Shown here: piece by piece, positions 18,583-56,086 of the stretch
How positions within the stretch are numbered: the first letter of the stretch is position 1
Layout of the letters: every line of letters starts with the position of its first letter
NCBI GenBank assembly: GCA_963169045.1
Contig: CAUJDF010000014.1
Location: forward strand, 1 to 64,000
Reading direction: 5' to 3'
Length of the DNA: 64,000 nucleotides
Source: Myxococcota bacterium
GTDB taxonomy: Bacteria > Myxococcota_A > Bradymonadia > UBA7976 > UBA1532
The notes under the pieces: model-generated
What the model was told of the DNA's origin: nothing
Seen by the model: the letters and a program-made list of their open reading frames with translations, nothing else
The model's database searches: none
Made by a program: the position numbers and the translations under genes

Positions 18583-18615
18583 CTGTGTCACAAGACCCGA
18601 GGGCCCTCCGTTGGT

Positions 18616-18639
18616 CGGTTGCAACGCCAACCGGCAACC
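18616..18639 (+). other. Two mutually exclusive hairpins in the VIT-vWA leader
   Basis: CGGTTG (18616-18621) can pair with CAACCG (18628-18633). Alternatively GGTTGC (18617-18622) can pair with GCAACC (18634-18639). The segment ends just before the GGGAGG ribosome binding site at 18645-18650. Such overlap could give a leader switch, but may be incidental. Confidence 0.25.
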
Positions 18640-18655
18640 ACCACGGGAGGACCCG

Positions 18656-39399: not shown

Positions 39400-40635
39400 A
39401 TGCGCCGCTTCGCCCCGCTCTTCGCGCTCGTGCTCGCCAGCTGCGCCGACGACGGCGAAAAACGCCTCGCCGGGCCCGATCCCGGCCAGTCGGGCCGCGA
39501 CGCCGCGCCCGGGAGCGACGCCGCCCCACCCGACGCCGACGCCGGTGAAGACGACGACGCCGCGCCGCCCCCCGACGGCGACGTCGCCGACCCGGACGCC
39601 GCCGTCGCCGACCCGGACGCCGCCGCCGCCGACCCGGACGCCGGTCCGGGCTGCCCGCCCGGCACGGCCTGCAACCCGATTGAAATCGAGGACTTCCCGT
39701 TCCGCGACGCGCGCGACACGCGCGACGCGCCCGGCGCCGAGTGGGACGCCTACGCCTGCGCGCCGGACACGAACGAGTCCGGCCCGGAGTTCGTCTACCG
39801 CGTCGAGGTCCGCGAGCGCGGCCTGCTGAGCGCGCGCATCGAGGAGGAGCCGCGCGACGACGTCGACATCGACGTGCACCTGCTCGGCACCGCCGACCCC
39901 GACGACTGCGTCGCCCGCGACCACGTCGGCGTCTCCGCGTTCGTCGAGCCCGGCACGTACCACATCGCCGTCGACACCTGGGTGGACGGCGACGGCATGG
40001 CGAAGGCCGGCCCGTTCACGCTCGCCGTCGACCTGCGCCCGCAGGGCAGCGGCGCCTGCGAGACGCTGCCCACGCGCCTCGAGATGTTCTGGCGCGCCTG
40101 CGATCCCGGCGTGCCCGACTGCGTCGCCGAGGGCGGCGCCGTCTTCCTCGACCTGCCGACGAGCGGCCCCGTCGTGAAGGAGGCCCACCTCGTCACCGTC
40201 GCCGACGACTTCGGCGGCGGCTGGCCGCAGGGCAGCCGCGACGGCATCGAGCGACACTACGCGCTCTCCGAGGCCGCGACCGGCTTCGTGACCGAGCGGC
40301 GCGAGCCGTGGGCCCCCGAGGGCGAGGGTGGTTCGATGTGGGGCCAGGCCGCCTACGGCCGCCCGCTGCCGGTCGAGGACGAAGCCTGGTACGTCAACAT
40401 GTACTGGCGCCGCCGCCCCGCCGCCGGCACCCGCATGATCCTCACCAACCCCGAGAACGGGCTCTCGGTCGTCGCCGCCGGCGGCTACGAGACCGGCCCC
40501 GGCGCGAACACCGCCATCGCCGGCGCGAGCGAGGAGATCCACAACTACCTCGGCACGCGCCACCGCTCCCCGATGGTCGTCGGCTTCGCCGCCGATCCCG
40601 ACCTGCCGCTCGGCCCGATCGACTGCGACCGCTGA
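39400..40635 (+). CDS. Lipoprotein with Asp/Ala/Pro linker and PPC-like domain
   Basis: 411 residues. The lipobox is VLASC (Cys15). Residues 20-85 are an acidic linker with repeated DPDAAVADPDAAAADPDA units. The first globular domain (about 95-215) includes IDVHLLGTADPDDCVARDHVG and FVEPGTYHIAVDTWVDGDG, the strand pattern of bacterial pre-peptidase C-terminal (PPC) domains. The rest (HLVTVADDFGGGWPQGSRDG, YVNMYWRRRPAAGTRMILTN) is an unidentified domain. Likely surface-exposed. A TAGACT at 39378-39383 and GGAGG ribosome binding site at 39391-39395 precede it. Confidence 0.8.
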   Translation: MRRFAPLFALVLASCADDGEKRLAGPDPGQSGRDAAPGSDAAPPDADAGEDDDAAPPPDGDVADPDAAVADPDAAAADPDAGPGCPPGTACNPIEIEDFPFRDARDTRDAPGAEWDAYACAPDTNESGPEFVYRVEVRERGLLSARIEEEPRDDVDIDVHLLGTADPDDCVARDHVGVSAFVEPGTYHIAVDTWVDGDGMAKAGPFTLAVDLRPQGSGACETLPTRLEMFWRACDPGVPDCVAEGGAVFLDLPTSGPVVKEAHLVTVADDFGGGWPQGSRDGIERHYALSEAATGFVTERREPWAPEGEGGSMWGQAAYGRPLPVEDEAWYVNMYWRRRPAAGTRMILTNPENGLSVVAAGGYETGPGANTAIAGASEEIHNYLGTRHRSPMVVGFAADPDLPLGPIDCDR

Positions 40636-40662
40636 CCCCGCCCGAAGCCCCACCGGCGAGGC

Positions 40663-40691
40663 TTGACCGACGCCCCTTTCCCGGCTTCGAT
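40663..40691 (+). promoter_or_regulatory. Candidate promoter of the WGR/MoxR/DUF5682/vWA/SWIM operon
   Basis: TTGACC (40663-40668) and TTCGAT (40686-40691) are 17 bases apart, 24 bases before the ATG at 40716. A G-rich ribosome binding site (seven G) lies between. This is the only promoter-like pair upstream of the five-gene block. Confidence 0.4.
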
Positions 40692-40715
40692 GGCAGCCAC
40701 TCTTCGGGGGGGCCC

Positions 40716-43700
40716 ATGCGGCGTTTCGAGTTCGTGGAAGGCACGTCGGCGAAGTTCTGGCAGGTCGCGCTCGACGGCGCGTCGTTCACGGTGACGTGGG
40801 GGAAGATCGGCGCCGCGGGCCAGACGCAGACGAAGGCGTTCGCCTCGGCGGAGAAGGCGCGCGCGGAGCACGACAAGCTCGTCGCCGAGAAGACGAAGAA
40901 GGGCTACGTCGAGGTCGGCGCGCCCGCCGCCGCGCCGCCCGCCGCCGCGCCGCCCGCCGCCGCGCAGGCGGTCGCTGCCGCCGCGCCGCCCGCCGCCGCG
41001 CCGCCCGCCGCCGCGCAGGCGGTCGCTGCCGCCCCGCCACCCGCCGTCGCGCCGCCCGCCGCCGCGCCGCCCGCCGTCGCGCAGGCGGACGCCGCCGCCG
41101 CGCCGCCCGCCGCCGCGCAGGCGGTCGCCGCCGCCCCGCCACCCGCCGCCGCGCAGGCGGTCGCTGCCGCCCCGCCCCCGGCGGACGAGGCGCACGTCGT
41201 CTGGACCGAGGCCGCCCGCGCCCGCTGCACGCTGCGGCCCGGCGGCCGCGCGCCCGAGCCCCCCGCGGGGACGCCCGCCGAGCACTTCGCCGCGGTGACG
41301 CGGTGGTTCGCCACCGTGCGCAAGCGCTGGCACCTCGACCGGTTCGCGCCCGAGGTCCGGCCCGCGGCCGATCGCGCCCTCGCCTGGCTCGCCGGCGGCG
41401 ACCCGACGCCGCCCGACGTGGAGACCGCGGCGATGGCGAGCGTGCTCGTCGGCGCCGGCGGCAGCGCGCCCTGGTACCCGCGCACGCGGGCGGCGTCGAT
41501 GGTGCGCCGGCTCATGGCGCTCTGGGCCGACGCGGGGGGCCTGCCGTGGACCGCGCGCGTGCTCCTCGAGATCCGGCGCTACGCGGAGGCGGGGCACCAG
41601 TACGACCTGCCCTCCGAGGACGGCCTGCTCAACTACCCGCACGTCCCGTGGGCCGTCGCGCTCCGCCAGGAGAGCTCGCCGGAGGGCGCCGGCGGCGACG
41701 CGTGGCTCGAGCTGCGGGACCTGCTCGCGGCCGGCGCCGCCGAGCAGGCCGCCGCGGCGCGCGCGGCGGTGGCCGAGGCCTGGCCGTCGCTGTCGTTCGC
41801 GGAGCGCGAGCTCGTCCTCACCGCCTTCCCGTACGACCGCGACTGGGCCGACGAGCAGGGCGAGACGTGGCTCGCGCACCACGAGGCCTGGACGAAGACG
41901 CGGCGCGCCTCGTTCCCGGACCAGGCGCGGCGCCGGTCGCCGGCGCTGGCGCTGCGCATCCTCGACGTCCTCGTCCGCGCCTACGGCCGCCGGAACGAGC
42001 TGCGCGACCGCGCCTTCGACCTGCTCGACCTGCTCGGCGCGGGCGCGGAGGCGGTGCTGATGCTGCAGTGCGAGCGCGGCGAGTGGGACGACACGCGCAA
42101 GAACGCCGCCGAGGCGCTCGCCTGCATCCGCTCGGCGGGGGTGGCGCGCTTCCTCGCCGGCGAGCTGATGGACCGCGTGACGAAGAGCGTCGCCGCCGAG
42201 TACATGACCGCGCACCCCGACCTCGCGGCGCCGGCGCTCGCCGCGGTGCTCGCCGGCCGCGGCCGGGCGGCCGACGCCGCGGGGACGCTGCTGCTCGCCC
42301 TCGATCGCGCCCACCCCGGGCTGCTCGACGCCGCGCCGCTCCCGCCGGCGCACCGGACGGCGGTCGAGGGGCTGCGGGCGCGCATGCGCGTGCTGCCCGA
42401 GGCGGCGCCCGGCGAGCTGCCGCCGGTCCTCGCGAGCCCGCCGTGGACGAGCAAGAAGCGCCGCCCCGCGCCGGCCGTCGTCGAGGGGCTCTCGCCGCTG
42501 CCGTGGGAGGAGCGGATCGTCTGGGGCCCGCGCGAGCAGGAGCGGGTGCGGCGCCCGGGCGACGCCTGGGCGAAGCGCCCGGGCCAGGGCTTCGCCGAGA
42601 TGGACCCGCGCGTGCGCGCGGGCGGCGTCTCGTGCCCCTACGGCTACCGCGGTCAGGGGCTGTTCTATACGTTCGCGTTCTCCGACGCCGACGCGCTCAC
42701 CGCCTGGAACGAGTGGCCCGCCGCGGAGTTCCGCTACGCCGGCGACGGCCTCTACGGCGCGTTCCTCGCCCGCTTCGGCCTGCCGACGCTGCCCGGCTTC
42801 CTGAAGAACGCCGCGGTCGCGCCCGTGCCCGCCGTCGAGGCCCTGTCGCGGGTGGACTCGCCGCGGCTCGCCGGGCTCATGGCCCACGCGCTCGCCGGCA
42901 AGGCGGCCCGCCGGCACGCCGAGCGCTGGCTCGCCGCCTTCCCCGAGGCGGCCGCCGTCGGCCTGGTCCCGCTCGCGGTGGGGCCGCCCGGCAAGGAGCG
43001 CCGGCAGGCCGAGGAGGCGCTGCGCTGGCTGACCCGCAAGGCGCAGCGGCCGGCCGTCGAGGCGGTCGCCGCCCGCTACGGCGACGAGGCGGCCGCGGCG
43101 GTGCGCGACGCGCTCGACGCCGATCCGCGCGAGCTCCTGCCCGCGAAGATGCCCAAGCTGCCGGCATTCTGGGCCCCGGAGGGGCTGCCGCGGCCCGCGC
43201 TGCGCGGCCGCGAGAAGAGCCTGCCGCTCGCCGCCGTCGCCCACCTCGGCGCGATGCTCTCGATCTCGACGCTCGAGGCGCCCTACGTCGGCCTCGAGGA
43301 CGTGCGGGCGGCCTGCGATCCCGACTCGCTCGAGGCGTTCGCCTGGGCGCTCTTCCAGGCGTGGCTGCTCGCCGGCGCGCCCCCGAAGGAGGTCTGGGCC
43401 TTCCACGCCGTCGGGCTGCTCGGCGGCGACGAGTCGGCGCGCCGGCTCACCGCGCTCGTGCGCGCCTGGCCGGGCGAGAAGGCGCAGGCCCGCGCCGTCG
43501 TCGGCCTCGACGTGCTCGCGCGCATCGGCACCGACGTCGCGCTGATGCACCTGCACGGCATCGCCCAGAAGCTGAAGTTCAAGGCGCTCCAGGAGAAGGC
43601 CGGCGAGAAGATCGACGAGATCGCCGCGGAGCGCGGCCTCGCCGCCCACGAGCTCGCCGACCGCCTCGTGCCCGACCTCGACCTCGACCCGGACGGCTCG

Positions 43701-44579
43701 CGCACCCTCGACTTCGGGCCGCGCCAGTTCCGCGTCGGCTTCGACGAGGAGCTCGCCCCGTACGTGAAGGACGCCGCCGGCAAGGCGCTCCGGGACCTGC
43801 CGAAGCCGGGCGCCGCCGACGACGCCGAGAAGGCGAAGGCGGCCGCCGACATCTGGAAGACGCTGAAGAAGGACGCCAAGGCGATCGCCGCCACGCAGAT
43901 CACGCGCCTCGAGCTGGCGATGTGCCTGCGGCGCCGCTGGGACGCCGAGGCCTTCCGCACCTTCCTCGTCGGCCACCCGCTCGTGGTGCACCTCGCGCGC
44001 CGGCTGGTCTGGGGCGTCTACGAGGGCGAGCAGCTCGCCGCCACCTTCCGCGTGGCCGAGGACGGCACGTTCGCCGACCGGAACGACGACGGCTGGACGC
44101 TGCCCGACGGCGCCATCGTCGGCATCCCCCACCCGCTCGAGCTCGACGCCGGGGCGGGGGGCGCCTGGGGCCAGGTCTTCGGCGACTACCGCATCGTGCA
44201 GCCCTTCGCGCAGCTCGGCCGCGACACCTACGCGCCCACCGACGCCGAGCGCGGCGCGCGGACGCTCGACCGCGTCGTCGACGTGCCGGTGAAGACCGGC
44301 AAGATCCTCGGCCTCGACGCGCGCGGCTGGCGGAAGGGGCCACCCCAGGACAGCGGCGGCATCTGGACGTACGACAAGCCCCTGCCCGGCGGCGTCCACG
44401 CCGAGCTGCGGCTCTTCCCCGGCCTCGCGGCGGAGATGGCCTACACCGAGCCCGAGCAGAAGCTCGGCGAGGTGGAGCTCGTCGCCGACGATCCCGAGGA
44501 GGGCGCGGCGCCGACGTTCGGCGCGCTCGACCCGGTGCTGTTCAGCGAGCTCGTCCGCGACCTCGTGCACCTGCGATGA
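40716..44579 (+). CDS. yehI: WGR and DUF4132 domain protein (YehI/MolR-like)
   Basis: 1287 residues from ATG 40716. The N-terminal WGR domain (about 1-70) shows FWQVALDGASFTVTWGKIGAAGQ and a Lys-rich end, a DNA-end or nucleic-acid binding module also found in PARPs. Residues 68-157 are a proline/alanine low-complexity linker. The body is helical and HEAT-like, with a central region around SCPYGYRGQGLFYTF. The C-terminal DUF4132 domain (from about 985) includes RQFRVGFDEELAPYVKD, TQITRLELAMCLRRRWDAEAF and RRLVWGVYEG. Architecture matches E. coli YehI/MolR. It is the first gene of a five-gene overlap-coupled operon. Confidence 0.88.
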   Translation: MRRFEFVEGTSAKFWQVALDGASFTVTWGKIGAAGQTQTKAFASAEKARAEHDKLVAEKTKKGYVEVGAPAAAPPAAAPPAAAQAVAAAAPPAAAPPAAAQAVAAAPPPAVAPPAAAPPAVAQADAAAAPPAAAQAVAAAPPPAAAQAVAAAPPPADEAHVVWTEAARARCTLRPGGRAPEPPAGTPAEHFAAVTRWFATVRKRWHLDRFAPEVRPAADRALAWLAGGDPTPPDVETAAMASVLVGAGGSAPWYPRTRAASMVRRLMALWADAGGLPWTARVLLEIRRYAEAGHQYDLPSEDGLLNYPHVPWAVALRQESSPEGAGGDAWLELRDLLAAGAAEQAAAARAAVAEAWPSLSFAERELVLTAFPYDRDWADEQGETWLAHHEAWTKTRRASFPDQARRRSPALALRILDVLVRAYGRRNELRDRAFDLLDLLGAGAEAVLMLQCERGEWDDTRKNAAEALACIRSAGVARFLAGELMDRVTKSVAAEYMTAHPDLAAPALAAVLAGRGRAADAAGTLLLALDRAHPGLLDAAPLPPAHRTAVEGLRARMRVLPEAAPGELPPVLASPPWTSKKRRPAPAVVEGLSPLPWEERIVWGPREQERVRRPGDAWAKRPGQGFAEMDPRVRAGGVSCPYGYRGQGLFYTFAFSDADALTAWNEWPAAEFRYAGDGLYGAFLARFGLPTLPGFLKNAAVAPVPAVEALSRVDSPRLAGLMAHALAGKAARRHAERWLAAFPEAAAVGLVPLAVGPPGKERRQAEEALRWLTRKAQRPAVEAVAARYGDEAAAAVRDALDADPRELLPAKMPKLPAFWAPEGLPRPALRGREKSLPLAAVAHLGAMLSISTLEAPYVGLEDVRAACDPDSLEAFAWALFQAWLLAGAPPKEVWAFHAVGLLGGDESARRLTALVRAWPGEKAQARAVVGLDVLARIGTDVALMHLHGIAQKLKFKALQEKAGEKIDEIAAERGLAAHELADRLVPDLDLDPDGSRTLDFGPRQFRVGFDEELAPYVKDAAGKALRDLPKPGAADDAEKAKAAADIWKTLKKDAKAIAATQITRLELAMCLRRRWDAEAFRTFLVGHPLVVHLARRLVWGVYEGEQLAATFRVAEDGTFADRNDDGWTLPDGAIVGIPHPLELDAGAGGAWGQVFGDYRIVQPFAQLGRDTYAPTDAERGARTLDRVVDVPVKTGKILGLDARGWRKGPPQDSGGIWTYDKPLPGGVHAELRLFPGLAAEMAYTEPEQKLGEVELVADDPEEGAAPTFGALDPVLFSELVRDLVHLR
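40919..41186 (+). repeat. Minisatellite coding the Pro/Ala linker of the WGR-DUF4132 protein
   Basis: Imperfect tandem units of about 36-51 bases encode APPAAAQAVAA-type segments. Several stretches (for example those around CAGGCGGTCGCTGCCGC) are near identical, so copy number may vary between strains. It separates the WGR domain from the body. Confidence 0.7.
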
Positions 44580-45661
44580 CGCCGGCGAAGCCGCAGCGTC
44601 CGCCGGCCGAGGTCACCTGGGCCGACGAGCTGGCGCGGCTCGCCGCCGCCGACGACGCGCCGCGGCCGCCGGGGTGGCGCCTGTCGGCGAAGGCGGTGCG
44701 CGCGTTCGTGCTCGGCGACCCGACGCTCGGCGTCGAGGCCAAGTTCGTCGGGCAGCCGGCGCTCGTCGAGCGGGCGATGGTCGCGCTCGCGACCAACCGC
44801 GGGCTGCTGCTCGTCGGCGAGCCGGGCACCGCCAAGAGCTGGCTCTCCGAGCTGCTGGCGGCGGCGATCTCGGGCGGCTCCCGGCTCGTCGTCCAGGGAT
44901 CGGCGGCGACGACCGACGACCAGATCAAGTACGCCTGGAACTATGCGCTGCTGCTCGCCGAGGGGCCGTCGCACCGCGCGCTCGTCCCCGCGCCGCTCTA
45001 TGTCGCCATGCGCGACGGCCTCGTCGTCCGCTTCGAGGAGATCACGCGCTGCCCGCTCGAGGTGCAGGACGGCCTGCTCTCCGTGCTCTCCGAGCGCGTG
45101 CTCGCGGTGCCGGAGCTCTCCGGGGAGGCGGCGATGCTCGACGCCCGCGAGGGCTTCAACGTGATCGCCACCGCCAACACCCGCGACCGCGGCGTGAACG
45201 AGATGAGCGCGGCGCTCAAGCGCCGGTTCGTGTTCGAGACGGTGTTCCCGATCCCCGATCTGCCCACCGAGCTGGCGCTCGTCCGCCGCGAGGCCGCCCG
45301 GCTGCTCGCCCGCGCGGGGGTGCCCACCGTGCCCGGCGACGACGTGCTCGAGGTCCTCGTCACCACCTTCCGCGAGCTGCGCGCCGGCGAGACCGCCGAC
45401 GGCCACGCGCTCGACCGCCCCTCGACCGTGCTCTCGACGGCCGAGGCGGTGTCGGTCGCCCACGCCGTCGGGGTGCGCGCCCACTTCCTCGGCGACGGCG
45501 TCGCCACCGCCGCCGACCTCGTCGAGTGCCTGAGCGGCACGGTCGTGAAGGAGAGCGGCGACGACGCCGACCGCCTGCGCCGCTATGTCGATCGCCACGT
45601 GCGCGAGCGGCCCGGGCGCCACTGGGAGGCCTTCTACGCGGCGCGGCACCGGCTGCCGTGA
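44576..45661 (+). CDS. yehL: MoxR-type AAA+ ATPase (YehL-like)
   Basis: 361 residues, start ATG overlapping the previous stop (ATGA). Walker A is GEPGTAKS (81-88). Walker B is VVRFEEI, in which the conserved DE is FEE. The pore-loop-like region is SAATTDDQIKYAWNY, and sensor 1 is IATANTRDRG. These fit the MoxR family, whose ATPases work with vWA proteins as chaperones inserting metal or cofactors or remodelling complexes. It lies three genes away from its likely vWA partner (47916), in the same operon. Confidence 0.92.
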   Translation: MTPAKPQRPPAEVTWADELARLAAADDAPRPPGWRLSAKAVRAFVLGDPTLGVEAKFVGQPALVERAMVALATNRGLLLVGEPGTAKSWLSELLAAAISGGSRLVVQGSAATTDDQIKYAWNYALLLAEGPSHRALVPAPLYVAMRDGLVVRFEEITRCPLEVQDGLLSVLSERVLAVPELSGEAAMLDAREGFNVIATANTRDRGVNEMSAALKRRFVFETVFPIPDLPTELALVRREAARLLARAGVPTVPGDDVLEVLVTTFRELRAGETADGHALDRPSTVLSTAEAVSVAHAVGVRAHFLGDGVATAADLVECLSGTVVKESGDDADRLRRYVDRHVRERPGRHWEAFYAARHRLP

Positions 45662-47919
45662 CCGCGGGCCTCCACGTCGTCGGGGTGCGGCACCACAGCC
45701 CGGCGTGCGCCCGCCTCGTGCGGCACGTGATCGCCACGGTGCGGCCGCGCGCGGTGCTGATCGAGGGCCCCGCCGACCTCAACCCGCGCCTCGACGAGCT
45801 CCGCCTCGCCCACCGCCTGCCGATCGCGGTGTTCACCGCCGTGCCGGCGGAGCGCGGCGGCCGGAGCTGCTGGTCGCCGTTCTGCGCCTGGTCGCCGGAG
45901 TGGGTGGCCTTCGTCGACGGCGAGGCGCTCGGCGCCGAGGTGCGCTTCATCGACCTCCCCGGCTGGGATGCCGCGTTCACGGACCTGCGCAACCGGTACG
46001 CCGACGGCCCCGACCGCTACGGCGCGCGCGTGCAGGCCCTCTGCCGGCGGCTCGGCGTCGCCGACCTCGACGCGATGTGGGACCACCTCTTCGAGCGGCC
46101 CGACGCCCCCGAGGCGCTCGCCGAGCGGCTGCGGCTGTGGTTCGCCGAGGCGCGCGGCGACGAGCCGGGCGGCCCGCGGGACGGCCCGCGCGAGGCCTTC
46201 ATGGCCGCCCACGTGGCGCATGCGCTCGCCGAGGGCGGCCCGGTGGTGGTGGTCTGCGGCGGCTGGCACGCGCCGGCACTCGCCAGGGTCGCGCCGTGCG
46301 CCGGGCCGCCCCCGCTCCCGGCGCCGCCCGCGGGCGCGGAGAGCTGGCTCGTGCCGTGGTCCTACGAGCGCCTCGACAGCTTCGGCGGGTACGACGCCGG
46401 CATGCCGTCGCCCGCGTGGCAGCGCGCCGTGTGGGAGGGGGGGACGGAGCGCGCCGGCGAGGCGCTCCTCGGCGCGGTCGCGCGGCGCCTGCGCGCGAAG
46501 AGGCAGCAGGTGTCCCCCGCCGACCTCGTCGCCGCCCGCGCCCTCGCCGAGGGGCTGGCGCGCATGCGCGGCAACCCGGCGCCGACGCGCGTCGACGTGC
46601 TCGACGGCCTCGCCGGCGCGCTCGTGAAGGACGCGCTCGAGGCGCCGCTGCCGTGGAACACCCGCGGTGTGCTGTCGCCGCACACCCCGCCGCTGCTCGT
46701 GGAGGTGATGGCGGCGTTCCGGGGCGACGCGCAGGGCCGCCTGCACGACGCCACGCCGCGCCCGCCGCTGCTCGCCGACGTGGCGCGGACGCTCGCGGCC
46801 CACGACCTCGCCGTCCCGCGCGGCGGCCGCCGGGTCGCGCTCGACCTCGCCGATCCGGCGGCGCGCGCCCGCAGCGCCGTCCTGCACCGCCTGCGCGCGC
46901 TCGACGTCCCCGGCGTGGATCGCGCGGCGGGTCCCGCCTGGGGCACCGACCGGCGGCTCGCCGAGGACTGGCGCCTCGCGTGGACGCACCTCACGGAGGC
47001 AGCGCTGATCGAGGCCTCGGTCTGGGGGCCGACGCTGCTCGAGGCCGCCGGCGCCCGGCTGCGGGCGCGGCTGCTCGCCGCCGACGGCCGGCTCGACCGG
47101 CTCGCGGCCCTGCTCGGCGAAGCGGCGTTCGCGGACCTCACCGACCTCGTCTCTTCGGTGGTCGCCGACGTGGCGCGGGCCGTCGGGCGCGAGCCCGATC
47201 TCAAGGTGCTCGGCGCCGCCCTCGAGCGCCTGCTGCTGCTGTGGCGGCACGGCGAGATCCTCGGCGTCGCCCGGTCGGCCACGCTGGCGCGCGTGGTGGC
47301 GGCCGCCTGGCGGCGGGGCCTGGCGCTCGTCGAGGACGTGCCCGCCGGCGCCGCGATCGACGCGGCCACCGTGCGCGCGGTGGTCGCGCTGCGCGACGCG
47401 ATGCGCCACGCGCCGGCGCTCGGGCTCGAGCTCGACCTCGGCCTCGCGGCGTTCGACCGTCGCGCCGGCGATCGCGCGGCCCCGCCGGCGCTGCGTGGGG
47501 CGGCGCTCGGCGCCCTCTGGTCGCTCGACGCCGCCGGCGCCGCCCGGCAGCGCGACCGCGCGGTGCGCGCCGTGCGGAGCGCCGCCCGCCCGCAGTCGTT
47601 CGGCGACTTCCTCGTGGGGCTCTTCGCCCTCGCGCGCGAGCCGCTCCTCGAAGGCGAGGACCTGCTCGGCGCGGTCGAAGAGGCCCTCGCCGCCCTGAGC
47701 CCGGCGGACTTCCTCGTCACGCTGCCCGCGCTGCGCCTCGCGTTCGCGTGGTTCCCGCCGGGCGAGAAGGAGCGCCTGTCGCTCGCCCTCGCGCGCCGCC
47801 ACGGCGCCGCGGTGAACCTCGCCCGCGCGATCGAGGCCGACGCCGCGGTGGGGCTGGCGCTCGACGCGGAGGTGGCGCGCCTCGTCGAAGCGTGGGGGCT
47901 CGAGGGCGGCGAGCCATGA
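45658..47919 (+). CDS. yehM: DUF5682 protein (YehM-like) with a hydrolase-superfamily signature
   Basis: 753 residues from a GTG overlapping the previous stop. The N-terminal 215 residues carry GVRHHSP (G9-x2-H12), LIEGPAD (E36), REAFMAAHVAHAL (E179) and CGGWHAP (G201-x2-H204). Two GX2H motifs with interspersed glutamates and an R-E-x-x-M-A helix are the marks of the TIKI/TraB/EreA/ChaN superfamily of metal-dependent hydrolases. The remaining 530 residues are helical and unassigned. Position in the operon and length match E. coli YehM. Enzyme activity is inferred, not shown. Confidence 0.85.
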   Translation: MTAGLHVVGVRHHSPACARLVRHVIATVRPRAVLIEGPADLNPRLDELRLAHRLPIAVFTAVPAERGGRSCWSPFCAWSPEWVAFVDGEALGAEVRFIDLPGWDAAFTDLRNRYADGPDRYGARVQALCRRLGVADLDAMWDHLFERPDAPEALAERLRLWFAEARGDEPGGPRDGPREAFMAAHVAHALAEGGPVVVVCGGWHAPALARVAPCAGPPPLPAPPAGAESWLVPWSYERLDSFGGYDAGMPSPAWQRAVWEGGTERAGEALLGAVARRLRAKRQQVSPADLVAARALAEGLARMRGNPAPTRVDVLDGLAGALVKDALEAPLPWNTRGVLSPHTPPLLVEVMAAFRGDAQGRLHDATPRPPLLADVARTLAAHDLAVPRGGRRVALDLADPAARARSAVLHRLRALDVPGVDRAAGPAWGTDRRLAEDWRLAWTHLTEAALIEASVWGPTLLEAAGARLRARLLAADGRLDRLAALLGEAAFADLTDLVSSVVADVARAVGREPDLKVLGAALERLLLLWRHGEILGVARSATLARVVAAAWRRGLALVEDVPAGAAIDAATVRAVVALRDAMRHAPALGLELDLGLAAFDRRAGDRAAPPALRGAALGALWSLDAAGAARQRDRAVRAVRSAARPQSFGDFLVGLFALAREPLLEGEDLLGAVEEALAALSPADFLVTLPALRLAFAWFPPGEKERLSLALARRHGAAVNLARAIEADAAVGLALDAEVARLVEAWGLEGGEP

Positions 47920-49034
47920 GCGATCCGGCCATCCTGCTGCGCTGGCGCCTCGTGCTCGGGGCCGCCGCCGAGGCGGGGCTCGGCGGGCTCGCGGGCGCCG
48001 AGGCCGAGATGGACGCCGCCCTCGACTGGCTCTACGGCCGCCCCGAGCCCGAGCAGGACGAGCGCGGCGTCCGCGGCACGGGCGGCGGCGAGGGCCACCC
48101 GCTGACGGCGCCGCGCTGGCTCGAGAAGATCCACGAGCTCTTCCCGCGCGAGACGATCGAGCGCCTCGAGCGGGACGCGCTCGACCGTTACGGCCTGCAC
48201 GAGATCGTGACCCACCCCGAGGCGCTCGAGCGCGTGGTGCCCAACGAGGCGCTCGCCCAGGCCATCCTGCGCGCGCGGCACCTCATGGCGCCCGACGTGC
48301 TCGAGAAGGCGCGCCGGCTCGTCGACCGTGTCCTGCGCGACCTGCGCGAGAAGCTCGCGCGCGAGGTGACGCGCGCCTTCGGCGGCGCCCGCGAGCGGCG
48401 TCCGGTCCGGCACGGGCGCGCGGCCGAGCTCGACGCGAAGGCCACCATCCGTGCCAACCTCAAGCGCTGGTCGCCCGCCGAGCGGCGCCTCTACATCGAG
48501 CGCCCCCTCTTCCGCGCCCGCTCGCGCCGCGAGACGTCGCGCTGGCAGGTGATCCTGCTCGTCGACCAGTCGGGCAGCATGCTCGGCTCGGTGCTGCACG
48601 CCTCGGTGCTCGCGGCCTGCCTGTGCGGGATGCCGGCGCTGAAGGTGCACCTCGTCGCCTGGGACACCGAGGTCGTCGACCTGACCGACCGCGTCGCCGA
48701 CCCGCTCGAGGCGCTCATGGCGGTGCAGCTCGGCGGCGGCAACGACGCGGCGAAGGCGCTCCGCTACGCGCACGGGCTCGTCGAAGCGCCGCGGCGCGCC
48801 ATCGTGGTCCTCGTCACCGACTTCTTCGAGGGCAGCGGCGCCCCGGCGATGGTGCAGCAGGTGAAGTGGCTCGTCGAGGCGGGGGTGACGGCGCTCGGGC
48901 TCGCCGCGCTCGACCCCGACGCCCGCCCGATCTACGACCGCGACATCGCGCGGGCGTGCGTCGAGGCGGGCATGCACGTGGCCGCGATGACGCCGTCCGC
49001 GCTCGCCGCCTGGATCGCGGAGAAGGTCCGGTGA
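47916..49034 (+). CDS. yehP: von Willebrand factor A domain protein (YehP-like)
   Basis: 372 residues, ATGA overlap with the previous gene. The N-terminal 200 residues are helical and charged (LEKIHELFPRETIERLERDALDRYGL). The vWA domain begins near 210 with VILLVDQSGSM (D217-x-S219-x-S221, complete MIDAS), continues with GGGNDAAKAL and IVVLVTDFFEGSG, and ends with MTPSALAAWIAEKVR. It is the expected binding partner for the MoxR ATPase and probably recruits it to a client through Mg2+-coordinated contacts. Cytosolic. Confidence 0.92.
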   Translation: MSDPAILLRWRLVLGAAAEAGLGGLAGAEAEMDAALDWLYGRPEPEQDERGVRGTGGGEGHPLTAPRWLEKIHELFPRETIERLERDALDRYGLHEIVTHPEALERVVPNEALAQAILRARHLMAPDVLEKARRLVDRVLRDLREKLAREVTRAFGGARERRPVRHGRAAELDAKATIRANLKRWSPAERRLYIERPLFRARSRRETSRWQVILLVDQSGSMLGSVLHASVLAACLCGMPALKVHLVAWDTEVVDLTDRVADPLEALMAVQLGGGNDAAKALRYAHGLVEAPRRAIVVLVTDFFEGSGAPAMVQQVKWLVEAGVTALGLAALDPDARPIYDRDIARACVEAGMHVAAMTPSALAAWIAEKVR

Positions 49035-50884
49035 GGGCCGACCTGCGCGCGCTCACCCCCGAGGCGCTCGCGGCGCTCGCGAACCCCGGGCTCGTCAAGC
49101 GCGCCCAGCGGGAGAACGCCGCCGCGCCGCCCGCGATCGAGGAGGCGCCCGACGGCCTCGTCGTCGGCACGTTCGCCGACGGCGCCGTCGCCCGCCTGCC
49201 GCCCGGCGTCACGCTGAAGGACGCCCCCTGCACCTGCGGAGCCGTCGGGATGTGCCGGCACCGCGTCGCGCTCGCGCTCGCCTACGCCGGCGGGGGCGCG
49301 CCGACCGTCGCCGGCCCCGAGACGCTCGACGACGCGGCGCTCGCCCGCGCCCTCGGCGCCGAGCGCGTGCGCGCGGCGCAGACGGCCCTCGAGCAGGTCT
49401 GGCCCGCCGAGGTCGACGGGGGCACGGTGCGCTTCGAGACGTGCGCCGTGCGGTTCCTCGCTGGCGCCGACCTCGCGCACGCCCGCTGCGACTGCGCGGA
49501 GGCGCGCTGCGTCCACGTCGTGCTCGCGGTCTGGGCGGTGCGCGCCGGCGCGGCGCGGGTGACGCTCGGGCGGGCGCCGGCGGCGCCGTCCGCGGCGGCG
49601 GTCGGCGAGGCGGTCGACGCGGTCGGGCGGCTGCTGCTCGACGGCCTCGCCCACGGCGGCGGCCACGCGCAGGCCCTCGATCGCGCCCGCGACGGCCTGC
49701 TCGCCGCGGGGTGCGCCTGGCCGGCCGCGATCCTCGACGAGCTCCGGCAGCAGCTCGCCGGCTACGCGGACCGCCACGCGCGGCACGACGCGTCCCACGC
49801 CGCCGCGCTGTGCGCTGAGCTCGCGACCCGCGCCCGCGCCCGCGGCGACGCCCGCGCCGTCCTCGGCGTCGGCGCCGGCGGCGACACCGTGCTCGACACC
49901 GCGCGCTGGATCGGGCTCGGCGCGCGCCTCGAGGCGGGCGAGGCGGACCACGTCGCCGAGGTGTATCTCGCCGATCCCGAGGCGGGCGTCGTGCTGGTGC
50001 TGCCGGTCCGCTGGCCGCGCGACGCGGGCGGCGAGGCCGCCGAGCGCCTCGTCGCCCCCGCCGTCACCCTCGGCCGCCTCGCGGGCGGGCAGGCGGTGTC
50101 GCGCAAGGCGGTGCGCCGGCCGGACCGCGTCCTGCGGCTGCCCGGCGGCCGGCACACGACCGTCCTCGGCCAGACCGGCGACTGGGAGGCGCTGCCCGCC
50201 GCGCTGCGGGTGGAGCGCGTCGCCGCGTGGCGGGACCGCGCGCGCGAGCGGCCCCCGCGCTGGCTCCGGCCGCGGGTGCGCGCCGAGGACGTGGTCGCCG
50301 TGCGGATCGCGGCGGTCGAGCGCGTGACCTGGTCGCCCGGCGCGCAGACCCTGCGCGCGCTCGCCCGCGACGGCGCCGGGGACGCGATCGAGGTCGTGGC
50401 CCGCTGGCGCGCCGTCGCACCGCACGCGGTCGACGCCGTCGCCGAGGCGCTGCCGCGGACCACCTGGATCGCCGGCCCGCTCACCCTCTCCGGTGGCCTG
50501 GCGCGTCTCGAGCCCACCGCCCTCGTCGCCGGCGGCGCGGTGATCCTTCCCGACCTCGCCGGGCCGCGGCCGTCCGTGCGGCTGCCCTTCGCGGCGACGC
50601 CGCCGCCCTCCGCCCTCGCCGAGGCGCTCGCCGACGCGGCGACGGCCCTCGCGACCGCGGCCCACCTCGGCCTGTGCGCGCGCGACATGGATCGCCGGGC
50701 GGACGAGGCCGCGGCGCGCCTCGCCGCCCTCGGCCTCGCCGGCGTGGCCACGCGACTGCGCGCCTTCGCCGCCGCGGCGCGGAGCGCGCGCCTCGATCCC
50801 GCGCGCGGACCCGAGGCCGCGCGCGCGTGGGCGATCGCCGCGACCCGGGTGCACCTCGCGACGGAGCGCGCCGACGGCGCGTGA
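49031..50884 (+). CDS. yehQ: Double SWIM zinc-finger protein (YehQ-like)
   Basis: 617 residues from a GTG overlapping the previous stop. The first SWIM motif is C67-x-C69-x5-C75-x-H77 (CTCGAVGMCRH). A second, C153-x-C155-x4-C160-x-H162 (CDCAEARCVH), follows within 80 residues. SWIM fingers bind DNA or protein. The remaining 450 residues alternate beta and helical segments without a known domain. It is the last gene of the operon; a large palindrome begins 17 bases after its stop. Confidence 0.88.
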   Translation: MRADLRALTPEALAALANPGLVKRAQRENAAAPPAIEEAPDGLVVGTFADGAVARLPPGVTLKDAPCTCGAVGMCRHRVALALAYAGGGAPTVAGPETLDDAALARALGAERVRAAQTALEQVWPAEVDGGTVRFETCAVRFLAGADLAHARCDCAEARCVHVVLAVWAVRAGAARVTLGRAPAAPSAAAVGEAVDAVGRLLLDGLAHGGGHAQALDRARDGLLAAGCAWPAAILDELRQQLAGYADRHARHDASHAAALCAELATRARARGDARAVLGVGAGGDTVLDTARWIGLGARLEAGEADHVAEVYLADPEAGVVLVLPVRWPRDAGGEAAERLVAPAVTLGRLAGGQAVSRKAVRRPDRVLRLPGGRHTTVLGQTGDWEALPAALRVERVAAWRDRARERPPRWLRPRVRAEDVVAVRIAAVERVTWSPGAQTLRALARDGAGDAIEVVARWRAVAPHAVDAVAEALPRTTWIAGPLTLSGGLARLEPTALVAGGAVILPDLAGPRPSVRLPFAATPPPSALAEALADAATALATAAHLGLCARDMDRRADEAAARLAALGLAGVATRLRAFAAAARSARLDPARGPEAARAWAIAATRVHLATERADGA

Positions 50885-50901
50885 CCGCTCACAGCGGCGG
50901 G

Positions 50902-51086
50902 CGTTCAAGTGGGTGACGGATCGCGCAGGACGTCGAGGCGAGGGCGAGGCGCGACCCCGACGGCAGGGCCGTCGTCCTGTCGAGCGGGTCGCAACGGAGC
51001 CGAGGCCCTCGACAGGACGGGGCCGTGGGCTCGCCCCGAAGGGGCCATCGCCTCGACGGACAGGCGAGGCGTTCCCCACTTGGACG
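50902..51086. repeat. 185-bp nested palindrome between convergent genes
   Basis: Three sets of inverted arms are nested around a centre near 50996. The outer pair is CGTTCAAGTGGG (50902-50913) with CCCCACTTGGACG (51074-51086), imperfect. The middle pair is GTCGAGGCGA (50932-50941) with TCGCCTCGAC (51048-51057), perfect. The inner pair is CGTCCTGTCGAG (50973-50984) with CTCGACAGGACG (51008-51019), perfect. It could be a MITE- or REP-like element, or a bidirectional terminator, for the convergent yehQ and xdhB genes. It contains no credible gene. Confidence 0.65.
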
Positions 51087-51105
51087 GCCAGCGCTGTCAG
51101 AGGGC

Positions 51106-53445
51106 TCAGCTCGACGTCACGGCCTCGAGCGCGCGCAGGATGGCCTCGCTCGTCGCCGGCGCCGTCAGCGGCGGGTCGACGCGATGGCCGCCGGCGGCCG
51201 AGATGGCATCGCGGATGGCATAGAACACCGCGAAGGGCAGCAGGAGCGGCGGCTCTCCCGTCGCCTTGCTGCGGTGGATGGTGTCGGAGACGTTGTCGCC
51301 GTCCTTCCACAGGCGCACGTCGAACACCGGCGGGCAGTCGTTGGCCGTCGGGATCTTGTAGGTGCTCGGGGCGTGGGTCAGCAGCAGGCCGGCGCGGGAC
51401 GAGCCGTCGTTCGGATGCCACACCAACTCTTCGGTCGTCAGCCATCCCATGCCCTGGATGAACGCGCCCTCGATCTGGCCGATGTCGATCGCCGGGTTGA
51501 GCGACCGCCCGGCGTCGTGGATGACATGCGCCGCGAGCAGTCGCCACTCGCCGGTGAGCGTGTCGACGACCACCTCGCTCACCGCCGCCCCGTAGGCGAA
51601 GTAGAAGAACGGCCGGCCCTGCATGGTCTCGCGGTCCCAGGACAAACCGGGGGTGGCATAGAAGCCGTCGGACCAGAGCTGCACGCGGCCCATGTAGGCC
51701 TCGCCCACCAGCTCGCGGAACGCCATCGTCTTCACCGCGCCCACCGTCACCCGGCCGTCGGCGAAGCGCACGTCGCTCGCCGCGACGCCGTACCGCTCGG
51801 CGGCGAACGCGGCGAGACGCAAGCGGATCTGGCGCGCGGCGTCCTCGGCCGCCTTGCCGTTGAGGTCGCTGCCGGTGGACGCCGCCGTCGCCGACGTGTT
51901 CGCGACCTTCGCGGTGTCGGTCGCCGTCACCCGCACCGCCTCGAAGTCCACGCCGAGCTCGTGGGCGACGACCTGGGCCACCTTGGTGTTGAGGCCCTGG
52001 CCCATCTCGGTGCCGCCGTGGTTCACGAGCACCGATCCGTCGGTGTAGACGTGGACGAGCGCGCCGGCCTGGTTGAGGTGGACGAGGTTGAACGAGATGC
52101 CGAACTTCACCGGCGTCAGCGCGAGGCCGCGCTTGAGCACCGGGCTCGTCGCGTTGTAGGCCGCGATCTCTTCGCGGCGCCGCCGGTAATCGCTGACCGC
52201 CTCGAGCTCGCGCGTGAGCGGCTCGATGATGTTGTCGGGGATCGGCTGGCCGTAGGGCGTGACGTTGCGCCCGTCGGTCGCATCGCTCGGCCCGTAGAAG
52301 TTGAGGCGGCGGACGTCGAGCGCGTCGCGGCCGAGCCGGCGCGCGATCGTATCGAGGATGTTCTCGATGGCGATGGCGCCCTGCGGCCCGCCGAAGCCGC
52401 GGAACGCGGTGTTGCTCTGGGTGTTGGTGCGGGCGGAGTAACCGTGGATGGCGACGTCGGGCAGCCAGTAGGCGTTGTCGAAGTGACACATCGCCCGCGT
52501 CATCACCGGGCCCGACAGGTCGGCCGAGTACCCCGCGCGCGAGACCATCGTCAGCTCGGCGCCGAGCACGCGCCCGTCGTCGTCGTAGCCCACCTCGTAC
52601 TCGTAGTGGAAGCAGTGGCGGCGCCCAGTCACGAGGAAGTCGTCGTCGCGGTCGACCCGCAGCTTCGCGGGACGGCGCAGCTTGCGGGCCGCGAGCGCCG
52701 CGATGCAGGCGAAGACGGCCGACTGGGACTCCTTGCCGCCGAAGCCGCCGCCCATGCGCCGACACTCGACCTGCACGCGATGGGAGGCCACACCGAGACA
52801 GTGCGCGACCGTGTGTTGCATCTCACTGGGATGCTGCGTCGAGCACTGCACCAGCATCCCGTCGTCCTCGCGGGGCACGGCGTAGGCGATGTGGCCCTCG
52901 AGGTAGAACTGCTCCTGCCCGCCGACCTCGAACGTGCCGGACAGACGGCGCGGCGCGGTCTCGATGGCCGCCCGCGCGTCGCCGCGGACGAGGTGCATCG
53001 GCGGCAGCACGTAGCGGCCCGCCGCGTGGGCCTCGAGCGGCGTGAGCAGCGCGGGCAGCGGCTCGACGCGCACCACCTCCCGGGCGCGGGCGGCGGCGCG
53101 CCGCGCGAGCTCGCGGGTCGTCGCCACCACGGCGAACACCGGCTGCCCGAGGTAATGCACGACGCCGTCGGCGAGGATGGGGTCGTCGTGGATCACCGGG
53201 CCGCAGTCGTTGGCGCCGGGGATGTCGGCGGCGGTGAGCACCGCGAGCACGCCGGGGAGCGCGCGCACCGCCTCGACGTCGACGCCGAGCAGGCGGCCGT
53301 GCGCGACCGGCGACAGGCCGAGGGCCAGGTGCACCGTGCCGGCGAGCTCGGGCAGGTCGTCGGTGAAGGGCGCGCTGCCGGTCACGTGCAGGTGCGCCGA
53401 CTCGTGCGGCCGCGAGACGCCGACGCGCTGTTGACGGTTCTTCAT
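51106..53445 (-). CDS. xdhB: Xanthine dehydrogenase molybdopterin-binding subunit
   Basis: 779 residues from ATG 53445. Landmarks of the molybdopterin subunit are the start HVTGSAPFTDDLPELAGTVHLALGLS, GGGFGGKE (cofactor loop), FRGFGGPQG, GGTEMGQGLNTKVAQ, and the catalytic Glu in KATGEPPLLLP. It oxidises hypoxanthine and xanthine to urate with its FeS/FAD partner in purine breakdown. The FAD/FeS subunit gene lies directly upstream with an ATGA overlap. The usual maturation gene xdhC is not in this window's operon. Confidence 0.94.
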   Translation of the reverse strand: MKNRQQRVGVSRPHESAHLHVTGSAPFTDDLPELAGTVHLALGLSPVAHGRLLGVDVEAVRALPGVLAVLTAADIPGANDCGPVIHDDPILADGVVHYLGQPVFAVVATTRELARRAAARAREVVRVEPLPALLTPLEAHAAGRYVLPPMHLVRGDARAAIETAPRRLSGTFEVGGQEQFYLEGHIAYAVPREDDGMLVQCSTQHPSEMQHTVAHCLGVASHRVQVECRRMGGGFGGKESQSAVFACIAALAARKLRRPAKLRVDRDDDFLVTGRRHCFHYEYEVGYDDDGRVLGAELTMVSRAGYSADLSGPVMTRAMCHFDNAYWLPDVAIHGYSARTNTQSNTAFRGFGGPQGAIAIENILDTIARRLGRDALDVRRLNFYGPSDATDGRNVTPYGQPIPDNIIEPLTRELEAVSDYRRRREEIAAYNATSPVLKRGLALTPVKFGISFNLVHLNQAGALVHVYTDGSVLVNHGGTEMGQGLNTKVAQVVAHELGVDFEAVRVTATDTAKVANTSATAASTGSDLNGKAAEDAARQIRLRLAAFAAERYGVAASDVRFADGRVTVGAVKTMAFRELVGEAYMGRVQLWSDGFYATPGLSWDRETMQGRPFFYFAYGAAVSEVVVDTLTGEWRLLAAHVIHDAGRSLNPAIDIGQIEGAFIQGMGWLTTEELVWHPNDGSSRAGLLLTHAPSTYKIPTANDCPPVFDVRLWKDGDNVSDTIHRSKATGEPPLLLPFAVFYAIRDAISAAGGHRVDPPLTAPATSEAILRALEAVTSS

Positions 53446-54953
53446 GGGGCCTCCGGTTCGCGCGCGGCCCAGACGCTGACGTCGGCCGCGCCCAGCGGCG
53501 CATCGGGGCGCGTCTCGAGCCAGAAGCGCCGCAGCAGGTTGCGCGCGACCTGCAGGCGCCAGGCGGCCGAGCCCCGCACGTCGGTGAGCGGCGCGAACTC
53601 GCCGGCGAACGCCTGCTGCGCCGACAGCAGCGTCGCCTCGTCCCACGGCCGGCCCACGACCGCGGCCTCGGTCGCGTACGCGCGCTTCACGACCGCCGCC
53701 AGCCCGCCGAGGCCGAAGCGGGCGGCGCGCACGCGGCCGTCGTCGCCGATCTCGATCGCCAGGCCGGCGCAGACGGCGGAGATGTCGCAGTCGAACCGCT
53801 TCGAGATCTTGTAGGCGCGGACCTGCGCGGCGCTCTCGAGCGGCACCTCGATCGCCTGCAACAGCTCGCCCGGCTCGAGCCGGTTCTGCATGTAGCCCGT
53901 GTAGAAGTCGGCGAGCGGCAGGCGGCGCACGCGGTCACCGCGCCGCAGGACGAGGTCCGCGTCGAGCGCCATGAGCACCGGGGCCGAGTCGCCGATCGGC
54001 GAGCCGTTGGCGACGTTGCCGCCCATCGTGCCGGCGTTTCGGACGGGCACGCCGGCGAACCGCAGCCAGACCTCGGTGAGGGCGGGCCAGCGCGCGGCGA
54101 GGGCGCGCCACGCCGCCTCGAGCGACGCGCCGGCGCCGATCGAGAGCACGCCGTCGCGCGCCTCGACGCGCTTCAGCGCGTCGACCGCCCCGACGTAGAG
54201 CAGCGCCGGCAGGTCGCGGAGCTGCTTGTTCGTCCACAGGCCGATGTCGGTGCAGCCGGCGAGCAGGCGCGCGTCGGGCCGCGCCAGGCGCTCGGCCGCC
54301 AGCGCCTCGAGCGTGCGCGGGGCCACCAGCTCGCCGCCGCACGCCGGCGCGTACCGGAACGTCTCCTCGCTGCGCAGCCCCTCGAGGGCGGCGACGACCG
54401 GCCCCGTGTCGAGGGCGGCGGCCGGGGCGTCGAACATGCGCTCGCCGGCGTCGAGGATCGGCCGGTAGCCGGTGCACCGGCAGAGGTTGCCGGAGAGCGC
54501 GTCGGCGAGGGCCTGCCGGCTCGGGCGGGCGCCGCGGGCGACGTGGTGCTGGTACGTCGCCCACAGCGACATCACGAAGCCCGGCGTGCAGAAGCCGCAC
54601 TGGGACCCGTGGCAGTCGACCATCGCGCGCTGCACGGGGTGCAGGGGGCGCTCGACGCCGCCCCCGACGTCCTCGACGGTGAAGAGGGCCTTGCCGTCGA
54701 GCATCGGCAGGTACTGGATGCAGGCGTTGGCGGTCGTCAGCTTCAGGCCGCCGACCACCTCGCGCCCGTCTCCGGCGGGCAACTCGCCGACGACGACGGT
54801 GCAGGCGCCGCAGTCGCCCTCGTTGCAGCCTTCCTTCGTGCCGGTGCAGCGGGCGTCCTCGCGGAGCCAGTCGAGCACGGTGCGCGTGGTCGCCACGTCG
54901 TCGACCTCGACGACGGCGCCGCGAAAGTAGAAGCGGATGGGGCGGTTCGACAT
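53442..54953 (-). CDS. xdhA: Xanthine dehydrogenase small subunit (2Fe-2S and FAD)
   Basis: 503 residues from ATG 54953. The plant-type 2Fe-2S ligands are C43, C48, C51 and C78 (CNEGDCGAC...). The second cluster has C119, C122 (CGFC), C158 and C160 (CRC). The FAD domain (about 190-370) shows LLAGCTDIGLW and GTMGGNVANGSPIGDSAP. It passes electrons from the molybdenum subunit to NAD+. A TAGAGT hexamer on the minus strand at 54965-54970 is 11 bases before the ATG. It forms an operon with xdhB. Confidence 0.94.
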   Translation of the reverse strand: MSNRPIRFYFRGAVVEVDDVATTRTVLDWLREDARCTGTKEGCNEGDCGACTVVVGELPAGDGREVVGGLKLTTANACIQYLPMLDGKALFTVEDVGGGVERPLHPVQRAMVDCHGSQCGFCTPGFVMSLWATYQHHVARGARPSRQALADALSGNLCRCTGYRPILDAGERMFDAPAAALDTGPVVAALEGLRSEETFRYAPACGGELVAPRTLEALAAERLARPDARLLAGCTDIGLWTNKQLRDLPALLYVGAVDALKRVEARDGVLSIGAGASLEAAWRALAARWPALTEVWLRFAGVPVRNAGTMGGNVANGSPIGDSAPVLMALDADLVLRRGDRVRRLPLADFYTGYMQNRLEPGELLQAIEVPLESAAQVRAYKISKRFDCDISAVCAGLAIEIGDDGRVRAARFGLGGLAAVVKRAYATEAAVVGRPWDEATLLSAQQAFAGEFAPLTDVRGSAAWRLQVARNLLRRFWLETRPDAPLGAADVSVWAAREPEAP

Positions 54954-55055
54954 CGTAGCCCGGTACTCTACGCCCGGCCCCCCTCGCGCGGAAATCCCCG
55001 TCCGCAGCCCGGGCATCCCCGTTCGAGAGCGCTCCCGCTCGGCGGAGGGCCGCGC

Positions 55056-56030: not shown

Positions 56031-56086
56031 AGGGAACAGAAGGGACAAAGGCCCCGGTTGCCGCCCCCGTCCACCGTGGAGGTCGA

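Follow-up and report, generated by a model that had tools for sequence, protein, structure and literature searches.

A yeh-type five-gene locus in a Myxococcota bacterium: a conserved MoxR-DUF5682-vWA-SWIM core with variable DUF4132 proteins

Gene content and layout of the locus

We analyzed a 64,000-nucleotide stretch of DNA from a Myxococcota bacterium (assembly GCA_963169045.1, contig CAUJDF010000014.1, positions 1 to 64,000 of the forward strand; hereafter the window), in which five open frames of 1287, 361, 753, 372 and 617 amino acids (aa) lie on the plus strand at 40716–50884. In the order WGR-DUF4132, MoxR, DUF5682, vWA and SWIM, they place genes of the DUF4132, MoxR, DUF5682, vWA_CoxE and SWIM families next to each other on one strand, the arrangement by which the locus is assigned to the yeh type. 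On the sequence evidence, the locus appears to be a complete copy of a widespread, functionally unexplained five-protein machine of the MoxR-vWA kind. All four gene junctions are 4-nucleotide overlaps (ATGA, GTGA, ATGA and GTGA), and the open frames and junction sequences thus bear out an earlier note on this DNA, made from the sequence alone, that had described five genes with four NTGA overlaps.

The same note had placed a promoter pair upstream of the genes and a palindrome after them, and had taken the five genes to be expressed as one unit. No sigma-70-like site was found at 40300–51300 by a consensus scan, which is a weak tool in a genome of 75% GC, and the promoter pair was therefore not confirmed. 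The palindrome is present as an imperfect inverted repeat, for which no T-run terminator was scored. It is just the overlaps and the conserved gene order that argue for expression as one unit.

Table 1. Features of the five-gene locus, in window coordinates
Feature	Position	Strand	Basis or conservation
Gene 1, WGR + HEAT-like solenoid + DUF4132 protein, 1287 aa, yehI/yehF-H family	40716..44579	+	Pfam
WGR domain, residues 4–67	40725..40916	+	Pfam; PDB 2ra8 match, 2.6e-11
Ala/Pro-rich linker; coding sequence a degenerate tandem repeat, periods 15/51/102	40921..41196	+
Equivalent of the E. coli DUF4132 variable segment, residues ~618–707	42567..42836	+	Projected by alignment
DUF4132 domain, residues 1022–1205, most conserved part of the gene 1 product	43779..44330	+
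Gene 2, MoxR-type AAA+ ATPase, YehL-like, 361 aa	44576..45661	+	AAA_5, 2.1e-36; yehL position
Walker A motif GEPGTAKS	44816..44839	+	G, P, G, T, A, K identical in 101/101 homologues
Gene 3, DUF5682 protein, 753 aa, yehM family	45658..47919	+	Pfam, 7.3e-109
TIKI/TraB-like domain, residues 1–250	45658..46407	+	Profile comparison, Foldseek
First GxxH motif, G9-V-R-H12-H13	45682..45696	+	R11, H12, H13 invariant in 50 sequences
Glu36, candidate catalytic glutamate	45763..45765	+	Invariant in 50 sequences
Second GxxH motif, G201-G-W-H204	46258..46269	+	G201, H204 invariant in 50 sequences
Gene 4, CoxE-like vWA protein, 372 aa, yehP family	47916..49034	+	VWA_CoxE, 2.9e-49
MIDAS motif DQSGS	48564..48578	+	D, S, S kept in 100/100 homologues
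Gene 5, SWIM-type zinc-finger protein, 617 aa, yehQ family	49031..50884	+	Motifs and position
First SWIM-like motif CTCGAVGMCRH	49229..49261	+	At least one such motif in 82/85 homologues
Inverted repeat 3' of the operon	50973..51019	.	Imperfect, 19-nt arms, 84% complementary

The key residues of the ATPase and the vWA protein are retained throughout, or nearly throughout, a set of 100 homologues. The MoxR protein of the window was placed in the YehL type by gene order and by profile matches common to the window and Escherichia coli proteins. The gene 5 product has no Pfam match; it contains two CxC..CxH motifs, and its E. coli counterpart YehQ matches Pfam SWIM. The gene 1 product matches the Pfam families WGR (E 1e-18) and DUF4132 (E 2.3e-51), and an AlphaFold2 (AF2) model of its residues 163–1287 (predicted local distance difference test score, pLDDT, 85.7) shows a helical solenoid followed by a C-terminal alpha/beta domain.

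At 48741–48743, the vWA protein of the window has Asn in place of the Thr of the MIDAS (metal ion-dependent adhesion site) that is found in 97 of 100 homologues, which may weaken metal binding.

Conservation and co-evolution of the gene set

To describe the locus across genomes, 80 named loci were taken from a scan of genome contigs with a DUF5682 alignment, 64 of them with full flanks; the selection thus relied on DUF5682 and on similarity to the window, and the families were called by home-made profiles. The results showed that all five families are present in 61 of the 64 full-flank loci, the set of MoxR, DUF5682, vWA and SWIM in 63, and the exact gene order of the window in 50. The loci were found in genomes of actinomycetes, Myxococcota, Acidobacteriota, Pseudomonadota, Planctomycetota, Verrucomicrobiota and Lachnospiraceae, and the sharing of gene content and order is far above chance. 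A second variant of the locus has the order SWIM-DUF5691-MoxR-DUF5682-vWA. No recurrent sixth gene was found close to the core, and only generic families recur at a distance.

At the genome level, too, DUF5682 and DUF4132 occur together more often than by chance. Among 58 relatives, 15 have both families and 28 neither (Fisher p 6e-4), and in an even sample of Actinomycetota both were found in 2 of 118 genomes (the chosen centre excluded), as compared with an expectation of about 0.2 from 7 and 3 occurrences. All 39 DUF5682 genomes that were checked contain DUF4132. Two metagenome-assembled genomes, of Blastocatellia (L064) and Planctomycetaceae (L065), have DUF5682 without MoxR, vWA or SWIM nearby, and DUF4132 elsewhere in the genome.

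A single reading frame joins DUF5682 to vWA in at least 11 genomes, among them a Kitasatospora and the window genome itself, in which a second system (L103, G000:C49:20500-40400) consists of a short DUF4132 protein, a MoxR protein and a DUF5682-vWA fusion of 1142 amino acids. In 72 loci, MoxR, DUF5682, vWA and SWIM correlate closely with each other in pairwise identity (r 0.91–0.98), whereas DUF4132 correlates with each of these core proteins at just 0.69–0.73. The view that the five genes form one unit is therefore supported by gene set, order, fusions and co-evolution.

DUF5682 resembles TIKI/TraB-like hydrolases

In the AF2 model of the DUF5682 protein (pLDDT 91.4), an alpha/beta domain of 250 residues is followed by a long helical part. 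A comparison of the first domain with the TraB_PrgY_gumN profile by hhalign gave a probability of 93.5 and an E-value of 2.3e-7, under conditions where four of five controls (the helical part of DUF5682 and four unrelated families) scored a probability of 0.1 and one scored 0.9. The best viral match of DUF5682 found with Foldseek was the predicted model of a TraB family protein (probability 1.00). Both GxxH motifs and Glu36 are invariant or nearly so across homologues, and R178 is likewise invariant in 50 sequences. The residues H12, H13, E36, R178 and H204 lie where they would be expected in a TIKI-fold enzyme, and the first Glu of the 2His/2Glu set of RRSP is absent from its place in DUF5682 (PMC6254334). 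By sequence profile and by its match to a predicted viral TraB model, the DUF5682 protein thus resembles TIKI/TraB-like enzymes, and it may be a hydrolase, as had been supposed earlier, probably an endopeptidase.

Multiplication and variation of DUF4132

DUF4132 genes stand in tandem in 22 of the 64 full-flank loci, and each of four related genomes that also contain DUF5682 has 10–22 dispersed copies. The DUF4132 copies carry HEAT repeats. A WGR domain was found in 13 of 32 operon DUF4132 proteins and in none of 23 scanned copies, most of them dispersed, and E. coli YehI gave no WGR match. Since WGR is present in only 13 of the 32 operon proteins, nucleic-acid sensing, which the earlier note had proposed, is not a general feature of these systems.

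E. coli provides a test case. In strain K-12, the order is yehI-yehK-yehL-yehM-yehP-yehQ, with yehK inserted between yehI and yehL, and the equivalence of the window genes to the E. coli yeh region therefore stands: the five families and their order are the same, with yehK as an extra gene. Among 5426 complete E. coli genomes, yehM is present in 5284 (~97%) and yehI in 5283, nearly always on the chromosome and in a single copy per genome. One or two further DUF4132 genes lie between metG and yehI in E. coli strains, with full-length matches to two of these genes in 1604 and 681 genomes; the upstream copy of K-12 is broken into yehF and the pseudogene yehH. For E. coli sequence type ST131, insertion of a transposon into the DUF4132 region has been described (PMC9334617).

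Comparison of 12 E. coli strains showed a mean amino acid identity of 0.89 for the two upstream DUF4132 genes and 0.93 for yehI, against 0.99 for yehL, 0.97 for yehM and 0.98 for yehP. The ratio of nonsynonymous to synonymous substitution rates (dN/dS) is 0.19–0.25 for the DUF4132 genes versus 0.03–0.13 for yehL, yehM and yehP. In one of the DUF4132 genes, residues 541–660 occur as at least three segment types with a mutual identity of 33–42% (in 865, 3382 and 619 genomes), and the C-terminal part is conserved. Synonymous divergence is high, which argues for exchange of divergent segments. The variability was measured in E. coli, and the position of the segment in window gene 1 is its projection by alignment.

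An E. coli conjugative IncF plasmid (L007, NZ_CP103756.1) bears the yeh region amid IS26 copies and resistance genes.

Genes near the locus in the window

Convergent genes for molybdenum hydroxylase proteins with MoCoBD, FAD and 2Fe-2S domains (51109–56048) adjoin the operon. About 9 kb upstream of the operon, a protein with the N-terminal domain of a GmrSD-type restriction endonuclease is encoded at 30107–31822. A VIT-vWA domain protein is encoded at 18611–21124.

Interpretation and alternatives

The explanation that we tentatively favor, while granting it somewhat less than an even chance, is that the locus encodes one MoxR-vWA-hydrolase-SWIM machine with exchangeable DUF4132 recognition partners. 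In this model, an AAA+ ring of the MoxR protein would drive the vWA adaptor, which would be physically tied to the TIKI/TraB-like hydrolase, probably an endopeptidase, and the SWIM zinc-finger protein would be a regular fourth subunit of the core. The DUF4132 solenoid proteins would be exchangeable partners, docking on the core by the conserved C-terminal domain and recognizing a target by the variable solenoid segment, sometimes together with WGR. Binding of the target would then trigger ATP-driven remodeling by the ring, and a substrate would be released or presented to the hydrolase. The sequences themselves show the shared gene set, the co-evolving core, the DUF5682-vWA fusions, a TIKI-like domain with its motifs, retained ATPase and MIDAS residues, and multiplied DUF4132 genes with varying segments. 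From these we infer that the proteins form a complex, that DUF4132 docks by its C-terminal domain, that DUF5682 acts as a peptidase, and that a target, whatever its nature, is recognized. A more far-reaching version, in which the locus is an undescribed recognition system with a fixed engine, a set of DUF4132 receptors with solenoid segments exchanged between alleles as targets change, and ATP-gated proteolysis, is in our opinion rather unlikely; the segment-swap reading covers E. coli and the genomes with up to 22 DUF4132 genes.

Several observations weigh against a peptidase machine with DUF4132 sensors. The TIKI fold includes non-proteases, such as erythromycin esterase and ChaN (PMC6254334). 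The viral TraB match (from BFVD) has an E-value of 4.8e-3, and the TraB link stands at the profile level. In a PDB search with the whole DUF5682 model, in which the helical part had the greatest weight, nothing matched at E ≤ 1e-3, and by sequence DUF5682 had no significant relative in PDB. For DUF4132, sequence and fold comparison with PDB gave no significant relative of the C-terminal part, and only WGR was matched. DUF5682 and DUF4132 each occur without the other (in nine and six of the 58 relatives, respectively). In the variable segment, dN/dS in E. coli is 0.34, i.e. below 1, which argues for recombination of divergent alleles and not for point-wise positive selection. In several E. coli strains, yehL, yehM, yehI or other DUF4132 genes are broken, and the locus is thus dispensable in those strains. 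Finally, DUF4132 may be a client in need of maturation and not a sensor.

The last possibility is the essence of an explanation as a maturation chaperone of the NorQ-NorD or CoxD-CoxE type, in which the MoxR-vWA pair would remodel a client for insertion of a metal or cofactor and the DUF4132 proteins would be clients or adaptors. It is consistent with the VWA_CoxE and MoxR similarity, with the old name molR and with the molybdenum-hydroxylase genes adjoining the operon, and NorQ-NorD binds its client via MIDAS for iron insertion (PMC9976466). However, a hydroxylase homologue was found at no other compared locus, only beside the window operon, and no recurrent linkage to a matured enzyme of the CoxD-CoxE or NorQ-NorD kind was seen across the loci compared. 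Segment swapping in DUF4132 would not be expected of a housekeeping client, and no chaperone of this type is known to have a TIKI-like hydrolase fused to its vWA protein. We regard a maturation chaperone as improbable on balance. A chaperone for the neighboring molybdenum enzyme in particular was rejected, as this neighbor is common to none of the other compared loci.

An anti-phage or conflict system, in which DUF4132 would recognize invaders and the ATPase-controlled hydrolase would be the effector, with a logic like that of MoxR-vWA ternary systems, would account for DUF4132 genes that are variable, multiplied and partly mosaic beside a conserved engine. Other points in its favor are the GxxxTAKS P-loop of the MoxR protein, noted for some conflict-system MoxR proteins (PMC7159879), a weak bpMoxR match, and a type I restriction system near a plasmid-borne copy in Iodobacter. 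Nevertheless, no PADLOC family matched over a whole protein, the weak match obtained being to WGR only. PADLOC families (E ≤ 1e-10) numbered 6 among 91 proteins from locus flanks and 17 among as many control proteins of the same 15 genomes, and the idea of a defence island, for which the earlier note had proposed an enrichment test, was rejected on this ground. The locus belongs to the core genome of E. coli, where it lies at one site, and is almost absent from phages: no relative was found in IMG/VR, and the only match among 50,697 phage records, a 14-kb faecal sequence with DUF5682 and vWA (MT835988.1, 'Bacteriophage sp.'), may be bacterial DNA in a phage collection. A phage origin was rejected for the same reasons. 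A conflict or recognition role may be supported by the DUF4132 variability, but the phage-defence reading is weakened, and we consider it unlikely.

WGR binds DNA in PARPs, and the locus could be a machine for DNA damage or general stress: WGR-DUF4132 would sense DNA ends, and damaged complexes would be removed by the engine. In Deinococcus radiodurans, the operon with the DUF4132 gene DRA0166 rises strongly upon depletion of DdrO, as does the WGR gene DR2173 (PMC8533742). This explanation is quite doubtful, since WGR is limited to fewer than half of the operon DUF4132 proteins and YehI has no WGR match. Nor does the E. coli region have an exact LexA-box-like core; SOS control in E. coli was rejected, as no CTGT-N8-ACAG site lies in the region.

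Taken together, the DUF4132 proteins may be recognition partners or clients of a fixed engine. What is supported of the earlier note is the yeh equivalence, the unit and the joint action of ATPase, vWA adaptor and hydrolase, the last being supported by the fusions in at least 11 genomes, the co-evolution of the core and the TIKI/TraB resemblance; nucleic-acid sensing as a general property and phage defence are unsupported or weakened, and the variability of DUF4132 had been overlooked.

Comparison with known systems

The gene set as such is already known: in E. coli as loci to which no function is assigned, and among MoxR ATPases as the YehL subfamily (PMC3893208). The literature searched gave no function for the E. 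coli yeh locus, no description of DUF5682 or of the five-family combination, and mentions of DUF4132 in three papers that do not deal with its function. New, as far as searched, are the TIKI-like domain of DUF5682, its fusions with vWA and the variation among the DUF4132 partners.

The E. coli locus shares the five families and their order with the window, the DUF5682 proteins being 38% identical, and differs in having yehK and a tandem of two or three DUF4132 genes, of which the upstream copy is broken in K-12. The window genome has one DUF4132 gene at this locus, and its second system, with the DUF5682-vWA fusion, lies on another contig. DUF5682 is like the enzymes of the TIKI/TraB/PrgY/erythromycin-esterase fold (PMC6254334) in the series GxxH, Glu, GxxH and in a conserved Arg before the last strand, and unlike them in having a long helical C-terminal part and a place in a multi-gene ATPase locus. 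The MoxR-vWA ternary conflict systems (PMC7159879) likewise combine a MoxR-vWA pair with extra components, and the GxxxTAKS P-loop has been noted among them in the FtsH and beta-propeller types. They differ in their third components, which here are DUF5682, SWIM and DUF4132; WGR, SWIM and DUF4132 are unmentioned in that work, and VMAP, iSTAND, FtsH and beta-propeller domains gave no match above the Pfam cut-off in the five window proteins. In jumbo phages, the vWA protein that accompanies a MoxR ATPase carries a fused metallopeptidase (PMC7824862), a joining of peptidase and vWA that DUF5682-vWA may parallel. That pair, with a proposed role in processing during virion assembly, differs in being a phage-borne two-protein set, and the DUF5682 protein of the window had no match in any jumbo phage record.

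A locus carried by nearly all complete E. coli genomes has thus no function in the literature searched. The contrast between a constrained four-protein core and variable, multiplied DUF4132 leads to testable predictions on binding partners, cutting residues and specificity set by the segment. If the favored explanation is true, the known MoxR-vWA machines would be joined by a TIKI-type hydrolase that is gated by an ATPase and served by interchangeable recognition partners.

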